Assembly (NCBI GenBank): GCA_017959485.1
Contig: JAGDAM010000324.1
Coordinates: 1-5,494, forward strand
Origin: Clostridia bacterium
GTDB lineage: Bacteria > Bacillota_A > Clostridia > Oscillospirales > CAG-272
Length of the DNA: 5,494 nt
Direction: 5' to 3'
Every line of letters begins with the position of its first letter. The stretch's first letter is position 1. The notes beneath the pieces are model-generated. The model was not told the DNA's origin. It was given only the letters and a program-made list of their open reading frames with translations, and searched no databases. Made by a program: the position numbers and the translations under genes. Of this stretch, positions 1 to 4,877 are shown in pieces.

Positions 1-384
1 CGCGCCTCGCTCGGAGGACGCGCGGCTGAGATCGTATATTACGGCGAAAGGGACGGGGTTTCAACCGGCGCCTCCGGTGATCTCGTGAACGCGACCGCGC
101 TGGCCCGGCAGTTCATCTGCGCCTACGGAATGGACGCGGAGTTCGGTCTGTCGGTCGTTGATTACCGCGCGGCTGCCGAGGGCGAACTCTCTGCAGAGGT
201 CAGAGCGGCTGTCAACAGGATTCTGGAAAGAGAACTTGCAGGCGCTATCGGAATAATTGAAGAACGCCGCGAGGCGGTAGACGCTCTCGTCGGCGAACTT
301 GTCGCGAAGAATTATCTGAACAGAGAGGAGATATCCGCAATACTCGGACATCCGGTGTCCGGCGGAGAAGTGGTGCCCAAATGA
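1..384 (+). CDS. FtsH-like AAA/M41 zinc metalloprotease, C-terminal part (5' end outside window)
   Basis: FtsH-type proteases are membrane-anchored hexamers that use an AAA motor to pull membrane and cytoplasmic proteins into an M41 zinc protease chamber. Only the last 127 residues are visible. They begin with an LGGRAAE segment (residues 4-10), followed by YGERDGVSTGASGDL (14-28). This matches the FtsH signature ending in TGASNDL, whose Asp (here D27) is the third zinc ligand of the family. Next come ATALARQFICAYGM (31-44) and a C-terminal helical bundle ending in LNREEISAIL, like the usual LDGEEIxxIL end of FtsH. The AAA domain, the HEXXH motif and the membrane helices would lie upstream and cannot be checked. 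The reading frame is open to base 1, so the internal GTG at 85 is not the start. The link between the zinc-ligand segment and the C-terminal helices (about residues 45-62) is shorter and less conserved than in housekeeping FtsH, and the usual long polar tail is missing. It may therefore be a divergent paralogue rather than the main FtsH. Its stop overlaps the next gene by 4 bp. Confidence 0.85.
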   Translation, partial: RASLGGRAAEIVYYGERDGVSTGASGDLVNATALARQFICAYGMDAEFGLSVVDYRAAAEGELSAEVRAAVNRILERELAGAIGIIEERREAVDALVGELVAKNYLNREEISAILGHPVSGGEVVPK

Positions 385-3245
385 CTTGTTGTTTTACTGT
401 TGGAGCGATCCTGTCGCTGCTCGCTTTCGGCGGGGCAGTGGTCCTGTTCGTATTTTACGTCGTACAGGAGATACGCAAAAAAAGTTTGATCAAAAAAGGC
501 CAAAAAGTCGAGGCCTTCAGAATCCGCACCCGCTCGATCAGAACGAAGACCATGTGGCTGTCAGTCCTGCTGATGGCGTCGGTGTTGTTTTTAAGACTGG
601 CAGTCGGTTTTTATATCATAGGCGACCCGGATGTGGTCCCGGAAAACGAGCGTATATCGCTGGGCATTTTCGAGACCTCGCTGAACAGCGTTGTATTCGC
701 TCTCCAGACGTTCAGTCTCGACGCGAGCTACGCGACCTTCATCTCGGTCGGTCGGTCGATTGTAAGCAAGCTTTGCGGCGAGGGATGGGGATGTGCTTTC
801 GGGGGCTATACTGCCTTTCTGAACGCGGCGGCCCCTCTTATGGGCGGTTTCTTCATCCTTGAGGTCATAGCCGAGTTGTCTCCTTCGCTGAGAATGCGTC
901 TGCACTGCTGGGGCAGCAAATACTTTTTCAGCGAACTTAACGAAAACTCTCTCGCCCTTGCAAAAGAACTTGCGGGACCGGGCATTATGCTCATTTTTAC
1001 CGACGTTTCGCGTGACGGAGTCGATTCCGAGTTTGTGTCACAGGCAAAGGGACTCGGCGCGGTCTGTTTGAAAGAGGATCTGCTCAGCATTCCCGCTCCG
1101 AAGCTTACAAGCAGCAAAACCAAACTGTTTCTGATCGATACTTCGGAAACCGCCAATCTCGAGGCACTGACTTCGCTCCTTTCTTCGCTGCCTTCCTCTC
1201 CCAAAAAGTCTTCGGGGGAGAACACACATGACAAGAACGAGTCGGCAGAAATATACGTCTTTTCGACCGACCGGGAATATTCAAATCTTGACGAGGAGAT
1301 CGCTTTTATCGTAAATCGGCTTTTCGACGGCAAAGACACAGGCAGAGTTCCAAGGATCATTCCGGTAAACGGAATACGCAATATGGTCATAAAGCTGTTT
1401 ACCGACGTTCCTCTTTTCGAGCCGCTCATCGGTTCTCAAGATCCCGGGAAAGCTGAAGACAAGCAGCTGAATCTGACCATCATCGGAAGCGGTTCCATCG
1501 GCACCGAGGCGTTTCTCAACGCATACTGGTGCGGGCAGATGCTCGGCTGCCGTCTGCATATTACTGTTATTTCTAAAGAAAAAAGAAATGCTCACAGCAG
1601 CTTCCCCGGAGAGGGCGATTTTGAGGGAAGGATAAACTCAATAAATCCCGAGATTTTTATGACGGCCGATCCATCCTCGCCGCTTTTCAAAAACAATAAA
1701 AAGAACGGGACAAATCCGCCTTATTTTTCATACGATTATATTGAGGCGGACGTCCTTTCAGGCGAGCTCGATTCGGGAGTCTGCTGCGAAGCCGTATCCG
1801 ATACCGATTATTTTATCGTTGCAATCGGTACCGACGAGCTGAATTTTGAACTTGCAGACAAGCTTCGCCGTGCGGTCGGAGCGCGTCATCTTTACGATGA
1901 CGGGCACCGCAATACGGTAATAAGCTATGCTGTCTACAGTTCCGATCTGTGCCGCGCTCTCAATAAGGAAAAAAGGCACAAATACCGTCCGTCGGAGGGC
2001 GCCTGTGACGTCTATATGCACGCGTTCGGGAGTCTGGAAGAGGTTTACAGCCGTGAAAACGTCACGCTTTCCGATTGTAAAATCAACAATTATTCGGATA
2101 TTTACAGCGTCCAGTCGGATTCCGCGAGAAGGACCCACCGCAGATACGCGGAATATTCCGCCGGATTCCATACCGAGTCGTTTTTCACAAGCGCAAACGA
2201 CGGTATTTTCACCCTCCCGGCGGAAGAATATCTTGTATTCGTGAAGAATCCGGAAGCGGAGCCGCCCCGCGGAGGCACCGGCAGGCAGAGTATGCTGAAC
2301 GACCTTGCCTGGCTCGAACACCGCAGATGGAACGCGTATATGAGGAGCAGAGGTTTCAGAAACCCGCGGGACAAATTCGGGAAAGGATTCGAACAGTACT
2401 GCAATCTGACCGGGCTTACCGATCATCCGGAGAAGTCACATAAGTATATTTCGCTCAGATTGCATCCCTGCCTTGTCGAATGCGACAAACTCGGAATGAG
2501 TGAAAGCATTGACGAGCTTAAGAATAATCCGGAAGCAAACGATCCGCTGGACATGGTGTCTCTTGAAAGATACGGTCTGATTTATGACCCGGACGGACTG
2601 GCCGACCCTCCGTCGGATTTTAAAAAATTCGATAAACCGTCGGAAGGAATATCAAAGGAGGAAGAGACGACTGCAAGGCTGCTTGTTGAATGGCGCAAAA
2701 AACTTGACCAAGTTCTTGAGCTCAGGTATTTCTTCGTTGCGAAAAAATGTTCCGCTCACACGTTCCCCTTCGACGGTGCTCCCGTGGCGGATAAGCTTGT
2801 TAAGAATGACATATGTCTGCTTCTCGCAGGGGAGCAAAAGGGAAGTGAAAGCAAAGACGATAAGCGGTGGGTGCGGATCAAAAACGTAACCAGCGGCATA
2901 ATCTCTTATATTGATGAATCGTATATCGGGGAAACGGTAACCGGTTCCTCTCTTGCTCAACCCGAGTTCTGTCCGGGCAGCCCATCGTCCGCGAAGCATA
3001 GAACAGTGGAGGTCATACTCAGCGACGCCGCACCCCGCGGATGCATCTATGTCGCGGAATTCTCTTATCATAACGGCAGCGGCAAGAAAAGCACAAATAC
3101 GGTTTCTTTCACCGGAAACAGAGTTTCGGACCGAATCGGAGCAGACTGCGTTTGTACCGTCAGAGCATCTTTGAAAGTTAATGACAGTACGCTGAATGTT
3201 GAATCATCTCAAGTCCGCTCGGGAGAGATAGTAGTCAAAGAATGA
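381..3245 (+). CDS. Channel-like membrane protein with tandem RCK/TrkA-type Rossmann domains and a RyR domain (954 aa)
   Basis: I recognise the architecture but know no established function. Hydrophobic helices lie at about residues 6-28, 58-80 and 143-165. A further amphipathic, pore-helix-like stretch at 95-123 (ending TFSLDASY) sits in the loop between the last two. The basic stretch 31-57 suggests a cytoplasmic loop after helix 1, which would place the large C-terminal part in the cytoplasm. Residues 178-347 look like a degenerate Rossmann/RCK unit, starting YFFSELNENSLALAKEL and ending with the RCK-like MVIKLFTDVPLFEPL. Residues 361-525 form a second Rossmann unit with a clean GSGSIG (369-374, GxGxxG) for a dinucleotide or nucleotide ligand and a later strand, DYFIVAIGTDEL. 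Residues 637-740 carry RyR-domain hallmarks: WLEHRRWNAYMRSRGF and LHPCLVECDKL. Residues 795-850 resemble a bacterial SH3 fold (KRWVRIKN, then GIISYIDESYI), and 872-954 are beta-rich. The ATG at 381 lies in an ATGA overlap with the upstream FtsH-like stop, with GGAG at 364-367 (13-nt spacing), so translational coupling is likely. The gene ends at a strong terminator. A ligand-gated channel or membrane sensor is inferred; the domain calls come from motif reading. Confidence 0.8.
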   Translation: MTCCFTVGAILSLLAFGGAVVLFVFYVVQEIRKKSLIKKGQKVEAFRIRTRSIRTKTMWLSVLLMASVLFLRLAVGFYIIGDPDVVPENERISLGIFETSLNSVVFALQTFSLDASYATFISVGRSIVSKLCGEGWGCAFGGYTAFLNAAAPLMGGFFILEVIAELSPSLRMRLHCWGSKYFFSELNENSLALAKELAGPGIMLIFTDVSRDGVDSEFVSQAKGLGAVCLKEDLLSIPAPKLTSSKTKLFLIDTSETANLEALTSLLSSLPSSPKKSSGENTHDKNESAEIYVFSTDREYSNLDEEIAFIVNRLFDGKDTGRVPRIIPVNGIRNMVIKLFTDVPLFEPLIGSQDPGKAEDKQLNLTIIGSGSIGTEAFLNAYWCGQMLGCRLHITVISKEKRNAHSSFPGEGDFEGRINSINPEIFMTADPSSPLFKNNKKNGTNPPYFSYDYIEADVLSGELDSGVCCEAVSDTDYFIVAIGTDELNFELADKLRRAVGARHLYDDGHRNTVISYAVYSSDLCRALNKEKRHKYRPSEGACDVYMHAFGSLEEVYSRENVTLSDCKINNYSDIYSVQSDSARRTHRRYAEYSAGFHTESFFTSANDGIFTLPAEEYLVFVKNPEAEPPRGGTGRQSMLNDLAWLEHRRWNAYMRSRGFRNPRDKFGKGFEQYCNLTGLTDHPEKSHKYISLRLHPCLVECDKLGMSESIDELKNNPEANDPLDMVSLERYGLIYDPDGLADPPSDFKKFDKPSEGISKEEETTARLLVEWRKKLDQVLELRYFFVAKKCSAHTFPFDGAPVADKLVKNDICLLLAGEQKGSESKDDKRWVRIKNVTSGIISYIDESYIGETVTGSSLAQPEFCPGSPSSAKHRTVEVILSDAAPRGCIYVAEFSYHNGSGKKSTNTVSFTGNRVSDRIGADCVCTVRASLKVNDSTLNVESSQVRSGEIVVKE

Positions 3246-3284: not shown

Positions 3285-3331
3285 CGGGTCTGTAAAAAAA
3301 GTCGATTTTTTCACAGACCCGCCTGTTTTTT
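3285..3331 (+). terminator. Intrinsic terminator closing the FtsH-like / RCK-RyR operon
   Basis: CGGGTCTGT (3285-3293) pairs perfectly with ACAGACCCG (3313-3321). Inside this, after one A-C mismatch, six A:T pairs extend the stem to a 5-nt loop, GTCGA. The hairpin is followed, after CCTG, by six T residues (3326-3331). It begins 40 bases after the stop of the 954-residue gene and precedes the next promoter, so it separates the two transcription units. The stem is much longer than is usual for a minimal terminator. Confidence 0.9.
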
Positions 3332-3351
3332 AACAAAACCGCTCAGGACTA

Positions 3352-3380
3352 TTGACAAACCCGCAGCCGCGATGTATAAT
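3352..3380 (+). promoter_or_regulatory. Sigma-A/sigma-70 promoter with perfect consensus hexamers
   Basis: TTGACA (3352-3357) and TATAAT (3375-3380) are separated by exactly 17 bp, so both hexamers and the spacing are the housekeeping consensus. Transcription would start near 3386-3388, giving a leader of about 70 nt before the ATPase gene at 3456. It lies just downstream of the previous operon's terminator. A promoter this close to consensus is expected to be strong unless it is repressed. Confidence 0.9.
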
Positions 3381-3455: not shown

Positions 3456-4820
3456 ATGTTTTTCGCGAGAGAGAAGGAGCTGGCGCTTATCGGAGAACTG
3501 CTCCGCAAAAAAAGCGGGAGCGCTATGATATACGGGAAGCGGAAAGTCGGCAAAACGACGCTTCTCACATACGCTTTGAGTAAAAGCCGGGAAAAAACAG
3601 TTTATTATGAATGTCTGAAATCCACGATGGAGGACAACGTCGAGGGCTTTGTAGACGTTCTGGTGCGCGAAAAGGTAATTCCGGTTCCGATTTCGTTCAG
3701 AAGTTTCACCGACGTTTTTGCGTATCTGAACACTCTCGACGGAACCTACAACGTAATCATTGACGAATACCCGTATCTTAAGGAGTTAACTCTGCCCGAA
3801 ACGGTCGATTCGGTTTTTCAGGCAGTCATAGACAATCATATTAAAAACGTCCGTCTGTTTATCTCCGGCTCGCACGTCGGTATGATGAGGGACCTGCTGG
3901 AGGAGAAGAACGCTCTTTACGGCCGCTTTTCCCTGACGCTGCAGCTGAAAGAGCTGAATTACCGTGAAGCCGCTATGTTCTATCCCGAAAAAAGCGCGTA
4001 TGATAAAGCGGGAGTGTACGCGGTATTCGGCGGTTCTCCCTACGTGAACGGATTCATCGATCCGGCCAAATCGCTGAAGGAGAATATTATATCTACTGTC
4101 CTCAACGAATCGCATCCCGTTTATCAGTACGCGGAGCATCTTATGATTTCCGATTTTTCACGCGCGATCGGCGCGGAGCGGATTGTCGCGGCAATCGCCA
4201 ACGGAAAGCAGAAGTACGGCGAAATTGAAAGCAAGCTCGGCATGAAGAGCAACGGACTGCTTTCAAAGCAGCTCGCGGCTCTTCTCCGCATGGAGATTGT
4301 AACCAAAACCTTCCCGATCAACAAACCGGACGACAGTAAAAAAAGCGCTTACGAGGTGAACGACAATCTGCTGCGGTTTTACTACTCGTACGTTTATAAA
4401 AACAAGAGCGCTCTGCGTGTGCTCGGTCAGGAAGCTTTTTTCGACGGGTACGTTGACCGGTCGCTTCCGACCTTCGTTTCGCACCGGTTTGAGGAGATCG
4501 CGCGAACGTATTTTGCGCTCCGTGTGAGAAGCGGGGAGCTGAAGGGCGTTACAAATATCGGAACCTATTATTACGACGACAGCGAAACGAAGACGAACGG
4601 CGAATTCGACGTAGCTCTGGAGCGCGGGAATATATATGATATTTACGAAGTAAAATACCGTTTGGCTCCGCTCGGTATCGGTGAAATGAAAAAAGAAGAA
4701 GAGCAGATAAAGAGAATAAAAGGCCTGCAGATAGGAAAAATCGGATTCGTGTCGATTTCGGGATTCGATTCCGCGCAAAGCGAATTAGATTTGGTAACCG
4801 GAGACGATCTGTATTCCTGA
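3456..4820 (+). CDS. Archaeal-type P-loop ATPase with C-terminal DUF234 nuclease-like domain (454 aa)
   Basis: The protein starts FFAREKELALI, the typical opening of the ATPase_2 (archaeal ATPase, STAND-related) family. A Walker A motif, GKRKVGKT (27-34), follows, then a Walker B strand NVIIDE (99-104) and the sensor-like RLFISGS (132-138). The segment LQLKELNYREAAMFY (162-176) matches the conserved post-ATPase region of the family. Residues of about 240-300 look like a winged-helix module (KYGEIESKLGM, then LSKQLAALLRMEIV). The C-terminal part (about 300-454) fits DUF234: NDNLLRFYYSYVY (303-313), FEEIARTYF (345-353), GEFDVAL (382-388) and IYEVKY (396-401). Together these give the E...D...ExK pattern of PD-(D/E)XK nuclease folds, with D385, E398 and K400 as candidate catalytic residues. 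Length and domain order are normal for the family, which is common in Clostridia, Bacteroidetes and archaea, often as isolated genes, and has no settled function. It has its own consensus promoter and ribosome binding site and ends before a large hairpin, so it is monocistronic. Family assignment is firm; nuclease activity is inference. Confidence 0.9.
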   Translation: MFFAREKELALIGELLRKKSGSAMIYGKRKVGKTTLLTYALSKSREKTVYYECLKSTMEDNVEGFVDVLVREKVIPVPISFRSFTDVFAYLNTLDGTYNVIIDEYPYLKELTLPETVDSVFQAVIDNHIKNVRLFISGSHVGMMRDLLEEKNALYGRFSLTLQLKELNYREAAMFYPEKSAYDKAGVYAVFGGSPYVNGFIDPAKSLKENIISTVLNESHPVYQYAEHLMISDFSRAIGAERIVAAIANGKQKYGEIESKLGMKSNGLLSKQLAALLRMEIVTKTFPINKPDDSKKSAYEVNDNLLRFYYSYVYKNKSALRVLGQEAFFDGYVDRSLPTFVSHRFEEIARTYFALRVRSGELKGVTNIGTYYYDDSETKTNGEFDVALERGNIYDIYEVKYRLAPLGIGEMKKEEEQIKRIKGLQIGKIGFVSISGFDSAQSELDLVTGDDLYS

Positions 4821-4833
4821 AGGCAAATGACAC

Positions 4834-4877
4834 ACTTCCGCCCGGCGTTCGGGGTTTCCCGAACGCCGGGCGGAAGT
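4834..4877. terminator. Perfect 20-bp GC-rich hairpin between convergent genes, probable bidirectional terminator
   Basis: The arms 4834-4853 and 4858-4877 are exact reverse complements with a 4-nt GTTT loop. The core is CCGCCCGGCGTTCGGG. The hairpin starts 14 nt after the ATPase stop and ends 27 nt before the tpiA stop on the other strand, so it is well placed to terminate both transcripts. Neither side has a U-tract, so it is not a canonical intrinsic terminator. It may instead stabilise both 3' ends or act with Rho or another factor. Confidence 0.7.

Follow-up and report, generated by a model that had tools for sequence, protein, structure and literature searches.

Nucleotide-gated membrane effectors have been described in type III CRISPR systems, namely Cap1 (PMC12642688), Cam1 (PMC10808066), and Csx23 alongside Cam1 (PMC11229360). 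MBL nucleases paired with trypsin-like or caspase proteases in defence loci were reported by Tuck et al. 2025 (PMC12799240), and Kaur et al. 2020 delineated the FtsH ternary systems, in which a vWA-MoxR core is accompanied by two FtsH-type AAA+ domains, the first being inactive (PMC7159879). Judged by the parts of these publications that were covered, the first two groups are the nearest functional precedents for the gene pair considered here. It lies in a 5,494-nucleotide stretch, hereafter the window, from a Clostridia bacterium (Oscillospirales, CAG-272; assembly GCA_017959485.1, contig JAGDAM010000324.1), and comprises the end of a gene for a Clp-FtsH-type AAA+ metalloprotease and the complete gene for a 954-residue membrane protein resembling RCK-gated channels.

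An earlier sequence-only reading had noted that the stop codon of the M41 protease gene and the start codon of the membrane gene share ATGA, which was confirmed. The pair is real, recurrent, and distinct from the housekeeping ftsH, and it may represent an undescribed bacterial immune or stress module. In the open full-text literature, which was incompletely covered, no description of the pairing was found by title or abstract start among the matches listed, and the term "RyR" goes without mention in the main text of PMC12669027 and PMC8195603.

Recurrence and co-divergence of the pair

A scan of one genome per species returned 200 related stretches, 80 of which were kept; a channel gene was callable in 74 of the 80 (L017, L018, L021, L063, L068, and L074 were dropped), making 75 channel loci with the window. 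Clp-FtsH was present within the fetched stretch at 18 of the 75. In 15 of 67 testable loci including the window (14 of the 66 others), it immediately preceded the channel gene in the same orientation. Apart from the window, a locus counted as testable if its channel gene was long and was preceded by at least 1 kb of sequence; L027 and L028 come from one genome and show the same pair. The sequence-only reading, which was borne out in part, is supported in that the pairing occurs in many species. The gaps between protease and channel genes in the 15 loci are -8, -4, -4, -4, 8, 11, 12, 16, 21, 22, 26, 33, 33, 33, and 39 bp, with the -4 overlap of the window repeated in L030 and L078. Gene overlap alone is common in bacteria; the overlap in the window stands above chance because the adjacency recurs in other loci. 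Among Clp-FtsH genes found by searches whose query left the channel out, a channel-family gene adjoins the two G010 copies and, as a short paralogue, the copy in L090.

Co-occurrence extends beyond the locus. In a trans test covering 50 of the 57 non-adjacent loci, 22 of the 50 channel genomes had a Clp-FtsH gene away from the fetched locus, whereas the background figure was 5 of 689 (2 of 390 from the class and 3 of 299 from the family, centre excluded; Fisher p 7e-24), where the two background sets partly overlap, two candidates were scored per genome, and the cut-off was 1e-100 instead of 1e-80. At 41% identity or more the counts were 15 of 50 and 2 of 689 (p 4e-17), distant matches of 36-39% identity making up 7 of the 22 trans and 3 of the 5 background cases. 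Smaller, more deeply scored backgrounds held no Clp-FtsH (0 of 50, in a set overlapping the class background, and 0 of 49, with the centre and one known pair genome set aside). A channel-family gene is also present in two of the five background-match genomes, namely G575 (to which L075 belongs) and G657 (L090), and single loci divided between contigs may account for some of the trans cases.

Adjacent pairs also co-diverge beyond species kinship. Distances between locus-mate channels and between their Clp-FtsH partners were correlated in Mantel tests on the small numbers of pairs with full genes (r 0.59, n=14, p 1e-4), and the correlation persisted once housekeeping-FtsH distance was removed (partial r 0.72, n=11, p 4e-4; 0.67, n=10, p 0.002 without L048), with the proviso that partial Mantel tests can be optimistic. 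Trans pairs co-diverge weakly (r 0.21, n=17, p 0.027).

The Clp-FtsH protease

The window holds just the C-terminal part of the protease, because the Peptidase_M41 profile was matched from position 69 (positions 69-191 of 191, E 1.4e-17) in a frame that is open at the window start; its character was judged from relatives. These are Clp-FtsH chimeras of about 1,170 residues, composed of a ClpB-D2-type AAA+ module, an FtsH AAA+ module, and the M41 peptidase. The window fragment is up to 61% identical to the chimeras, as against at most 33%, in matches of at least 109 residues, to the canonical FtsH of the relatives' genomes. It groups with the chimeras and outside the canonical FtsH clade (12 rows, support 100/100), and a separate canonical ftsH is present in 15 of 16 pair-bearing genomes; the upstream gene is therefore not the sole housekeeping ftsH, the case that the sequence-only reading had named as fatal to it.

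The aspartate of GASGDL, at codon 27 of the window fragment, corresponds to D1088 and is invariant in the chimera alignment; it is probably the third zinc ligand. The HExxH site of M41 is likewise invariant in relatives, the corresponding region of the window gene falling before position 1, as does its AAA+ part. The protease motifs of the relatives are intact, and the Clp-type AAA+ module that they carry in front of the FtsH-type one has intact Walker motifs. A receiver-like segment between the AAA+ modules gave weak Pfam matches below cut-off (E 0.013 and 0.12), and the N-terminal 145 residues of the L028 protease gave no Pfam match as Clp_N.

The sequence-only reading had taken the enzyme for a membrane protease. 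This part is probably wrong: among 15 chimera relatives (L030 cut at its start; the N-terminus of the window protein lies outside the window), the maximum 19-residue hydropathy was 1.05 to 1.43 in 14, the exception being L042 with 1.92 at residue 28, and a membrane protease is unlikely because 14 of the 15 show no clear membrane helix. The enzyme is probably a soluble Clp-FtsH chimera.

A second, divergent Clp-FtsH subfamily (L117, L131, L133, L135, L136) shares 25-31% identity with the M41 end of the window, and its members have no channel gene within six genes. At L001 (3712-5483), a Clp-FtsH gene downstream of the channel is split into two frames; another contig of that genome (L116) carries a further, uninterrupted copy, which adjoins a CARF gene.

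The channel-like protein

Homologues of the 954-residue protein numbered 127 at E <= 1e-3, and its start codon agrees with the family N-termini; alignments comprised 34 (A1) and 116 (A2) of 120 listed homologues, each with the window added. The AF2 structural model resembles RCK-gated channels, including the DMI1/CASTOR gating rings, GsuK, and TrkA. In it, three predicted membrane helices and a pore-helix-like loop are accompanied by two RCK domains and, at the C-terminal side, by a divergent RyR-like region. The match to GsuK spans model residues 54 to 563 with a root-mean-square deviation of 11.1. In the model, RCK (TrkA-like) Rossmann domains thus lie C-terminal to membrane helices, as expected of an RCK-gated ion channel, and the identification as an RCK-channel-like membrane protein, which the sequence-only reading had anticipated, is well supported by model and fold matches. 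SAHH and other Rossmann enzymes also surfaced in the fold searches and were taken as generic Rossmann matches. No solved relative was found by sequence search, a profile search gave 13 rows, all at E 1.4 or worse, and no similarity between the two RCK domains was detected by hhalign.

The putative pore does not appear to be of the potassium type. The majority letters of the family in the pore loop are QTFSMDE-Y, and a G[YFL]G selectivity filter was seen in 0 of 115 aligned relatives with letters in residues 96-135.

As for the RyR domain claimed by the sequence-only reading, the claim held in part. The motifs are there, and a RyR-like nature of the C-terminal domain is moderately supported by them together with a weak profile match; neither the whole window protein nor its C-terminal piece matched PF02026 (RyR) over the curated cut-off, and profile-profile comparison with the RyR family gave a probability of just 31%.

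For one channel homologue (P0047), a precomputed Pfam domain PF27645 is listed, and a Pfam scan of the same protein gave no PF27645. Shorter channel paralogues of about 600 residues form a distinct clade (SH-aLRT 100), and one of them lies directly upstream of Clp-FtsH in L019, L029, and L090.

Neighbouring genes and larger cassettes

The pair often lies within a larger set of genes, so that the two-gene system of the sequence-only reading has to be widened: the pairing itself recurs, and it is frequently accompanied by CARF nuclease, YbjN-like, RyR, or TIR genes. At least one of Clp-FtsH, CARF, TIR, and DUF4062 occurs within five genes of the channel at 41 of 75 loci. A CARF-PD-(D/E)xK nuclease of the Card1/Can2-like type is found at 17 of the 75, with Clp-FtsH at 9 of the 17 (p 0.003, L027 and L028 counting twice) and without it at 8. 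Its CARF plus PD-(D/E)xK architecture is borne out by NE[IV]D...SCK in 17 of 17, by PADLOC CARF4 matches of 1.3e-29 and 1.1e-34 in the two members scanned, and by Card1_endonuc at 2.1e-5, slightly under the Pfam cut-off. Small RyR proteins occur at 15 loci by neighbour clustering and 16 by profile over all loci, the one member scanned (L007) matching PF02026 at 1.9e-37. YbjN-like proteins, often two in tandem, occur at 10 loci, three scanned members lying slightly under or over the Pfam cut-off. TIR proteins were found no more than three genes from the channel at 12 loci and DUF4062 at 3; TIR/DUF4062 genes made up 16 of the 407 genes lying up to three positions from the channel and 2 of the 547 further out (p 1e-4), a contrast biased upwards because 5 of the 16 were query genes chosen for lying near channels. 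The fullest cassettes, in the order YbjN, YbjN, CARF, Clp-FtsH, channel, were seen in L008, L015, and L078, with a RyR gene following the channel in L078; in L029, a shorter channel paralogue sits between CARF and Clp-FtsH.

Several further genes were encountered at these loci. Directly beside Clp-FtsH in L090 (8424-9494, minus strand), a tubulin-like N-terminus and a C-terminal TIR are joined in one protein (Tubulin_2 1.8e-5, slightly under cut-off; TIR 1.4e-18). A small family of 180-272 residues, two scanned members of which had no Pfam match, directly adjoins another branch of the channel family in 6 of 7 loci, the seventh (L074) having no called channel gene. Genes that look sigma-factor-like by eye lie upstream of the cassette in L019 (871-1863) and L088 (339-1139, without a Pfam match); CalpL-CalpT-CalpS would be a precedent for them. 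In L020, a type IV secretion coupling-protein gene (8249-9895) lies directly upstream of the channel, which suggests an integrative conjugative element.

Proposed role and alternative explanations

The pair is read here as part of a modular, patchily distributed conflict system of gut Clostridia, probably anti-phage, with a rough probability of 0.42 for the full mechanism that follows. The reading draws on the RCK fold match, the intact motifs in relatives, the adjacency, co-occurrence, and co-divergence of the two genes, and the defence-type neighbours; from these we infer a ligand, its gating, ion flow, a role in defence, a target for the protease, and a direction of control. The cytoplasmic RCK ring and RyR-like domain would bind a ligand of nucleotide type that arises or is modified in the course of infection, and binding would open a pore of non-potassium type, whereupon the cell would be depolarised or arrested. 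The upstream gene would supply a double-AAA+ metalloprotease (a Clp-type unfoldase, an FtsH-type AAA+, and M41) co-translated with the channel, whose most likely target would be the channel or a regulator that the two share, so that the effector is kept off or reset. The two options of the sequence-only reading, that a ligand controls the proteolysis or that proteolysis controls the channel, are conjectural. A more specific version seems rather unlikely, namely an immune system whose effector, the ligand-gated RCK-RyR channel, is not selective for potassium and opens upon a nucleotide signal (perhaps of TIR or NAD origin), with its abundance or activity set by Clp-FtsH and with the CARF nuclease as a parallel arm.

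A number of results weigh against the preferred reading. The 954-residue protein has no Pfam match over cut-off, no NCBIfam match, and no PADLOC match, and annotation with these resources would miss it because no model matches. The fetched stretches of 57 of the 75 channel loci contain no Clp-FtsH; in the trans test none was detected in 28 of 50 channel genomes, and of 24 genomes examined 4 gave a Cas10-palm (PF22335) match, which was weak in two cases, these genomes being drafts of untold completeness. A PF22335 match is not proof of Cas10 because the model also matches the control E. coli; a role as a type III CRISPR accessory is unsupported, and, because so few genomes gave the match, any ligand of the CARF protein probably comes from elsewhere. 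No ligand synthase was identified. Carriage by phages or plasmids is likewise unsupported, since no match on plasmids was obtained and, of 22 stretches in viral contigs that fitted a pattern, none was confirmed as a relative.

That a housekeeping ftsH overlaps an unrelated membrane gene by chance would account for the M41 match as such; the placement of the fragment among the chimeras, the separate canonical ftsH, and the recurring adjacency led to the rejection of this highly improbable explanation. A non-immune module, namely an ion or osmotic channel governed by nucleotide state together with a dedicated quality-control protease, would sit well with the fold matches to RCK/TrkA-type proteins, given the part that RCK channels and TrkA/KtrA play in ion homeostasis and the breakdown of membrane proteins by FtsH. 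It is nevertheless distinctly unlikely in view of the rare and patchy distribution (Clp-FtsH in about 1% of background genomes), the CARF nuclease, TIR, and DUF4062 neighbours, and the missing potassium filter.

More weight should be given to the possibility that the same defence loci gather channel, CARF nuclease, TIR, and Clp-FtsH as effectors or regulators that can replace one another and answer a common trigger, the protease acting on phage proteins or a regulator and not on the channel, as CalpL acts on an anti-sigma factor, so far as that source was covered (PMC11229360). Although doubtful overall, this rival is serious because the protease also occurs without an adjacent channel. There was no channel near Clp-FtsH at L088, L089, L091, and L092 (YbjN-like genes alone at L088), nor within six genes of it at any of 17 trans loci, some of whose stretches end at contig ends (20 regions were fetched; L120, L124, and L134 had no called Clp-FtsH gene), and 5 of the 17 carried YbjN-like or CARF genes instead (L094, L119, L121, L123, L125). 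The eight CARF loci without Clp-FtsH point the same way, as does the swapping of modules: on the channel tree, a quickly built one of 83 rows that leaves 20 of its 79 inner branches open, the Clp-FtsH label switches 15 times, so the protease-channel link appears to have been repeatedly gained or lost. A closer tie is suggested by the spacing of -8 to 39 bp and by adjacent pairs co-diverging more than species kinship would explain, and the weak co-divergence in trans also counts against parallel effectors.

Should the preferred reading, an anti-phage conflict system, prove true, the RCK gating ring, as in BK and CASTOR channels, and a RyR-like domain would join the bacterial conflict effectors, an unusual AAA+ protease architecture would be tied to the control of a membrane effector, and a bacterial setting would become available for testing the ligands of RyR domains.

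Layout of the window

The features are collected in Table 1. The terminator said by the sequence-only reading to close the pair was found as a hairpin followed by a T tract; a 100-nt stretch there has a folding energy of -30.2 kcal/mol, with z = -4.5 relative to shuffled sequences. The ATPase_2/DUF234 gene that follows is preceded by a perfect sigma-70-type promoter match (12 of 12, 3352-3380). It was rejected as a third member and treated as a bystander because it has a promoter match of its own and the genes called in the 80 channel loci include no homologue at E <= 1e-10. The ATPase and triosephosphate isomerase genes converge on an inverted repeat with a 20-pair stem (4834-4877), perhaps a terminator used by both.

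Table 1. Coordinates of features in the window and of two gene families at related loci.
Feature	Position	Strand	Basis
Clp-FtsH-type AAA+ metalloprotease gene, C-terminal 127 codons (M41 zinc-peptidase end), cut by window start	1..384	+	Pfam
ATGA stop/start overlap	381..384	+	ATG 381-383, TGA 382-384
RCK-gated-channel-like membrane protein, complete gene, 954 residues	381..3245	+	Open reading frame, homologues, AF2 model
Predicted membrane helix 1, residues 2-38	384..494	+	Hydropathy/model
Predicted membrane helix 2, residues 53-81	537..623	+	Hydropathy/model
Pore-helix-like segment and loop, residues 96-117, with QTFSLDASY	666..731	+	Model, alignment
Predicted inner membrane helix 3, residues 134-166	780..878	+	Hydropathy/model
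RCK-like Rossmann domain 1, residues ~178-345; degenerate glycine motif, SELN	912..1415	+	Model, fold search, alignment
RCK-like Rossmann domain 2, residues ~360-565; GxGxIGTE conserved	1458..2075	+	Model, fold search, alignment
Divergent RyR-like domain, residues ~635-790; EHRRW-x8-F and HPCLV motifs	2283..2750	+	Alignment, model
Variable C-terminal tail, residues 792-954, low model confidence, unconserved in family	2754..3242	+	Alignment, model
Intrinsic terminator-like hairpin and T tract, closing the pair	3285..3332	+	Stem-loop ~3285-3321, then GCCTGTTTTTT
ATPase_2/DUF234 ATPase gene, downstream of pair	3456-4820		Pfam; PADLOC candidate family PDC-S27
Triosephosphate isomerase gene	After ATPase gene	-	Pfam
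Shorter channel paralogues	L019 4590-6377, L029 4644-6443, L032 4559-6373, L037 9818-11620, L079 9800-11590, L090 12910-14718		
Small-family genes	L060 4681-5496, L065 12048-12590, L066 12039-12581, L069 12300-12842, L072 7181-7723, L074 5882-6424, L075 8979-9797		

Comparison with known systems

The window protein shares with RCK-gated channels and gating rings (GsuK, DMI1/CASTOR, Slo1, TrkA/KtrA) the succession of membrane helices and two RCK Rossmann domains, and differs from them in lacking the G[YFL]G filter, in its degenerate first RCK motif, in the added RyR-like C-terminus, and in its conflict-type neighbours. With RyR domain proteins it has in common the H-x2-W-x8-[FW] spacing and the PCLV motif; true PF02026 domains occur at the C-terminus of the channel homologues P0041 and P0049, whereas the window protein has no such match. 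The protease relatives combine FtsH (M41) and ClpB/ClpC modules, fused in one chain, and depart from FtsH in that 14 of 15 have no clear membrane helix and in the weak receiver-like segment between the AAA+ modules.

In the covered parts of the cited work, the FtsH ternary systems resemble the present loci in placing FtsH-type AAA+ proteins in conflict systems (PMC7159879); the first AAA+ module of the relatives, in contrast, is Clp-type with intact Walker motifs, a comparison that was made on the AAA+ domains. To the extent that they are described there, Cap1, Cam1, and Csx23 likewise have membrane helices fused to a nucleotide-sensing domain, and a CARF protein is often found in channel loci, whereas the putative sensors here are RCK and RyR-like domains and Cas10 matches are mostly absent. 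Last, the pairs of Tuck et al. offer, in the portion covered, the same recurrent partnership of nuclease and protease in defence loci (PMC12799240), with the difference that a CARF-PD-(D/E)xK nuclease and an AAA+ metalloprotease are combined here, together with a channel.

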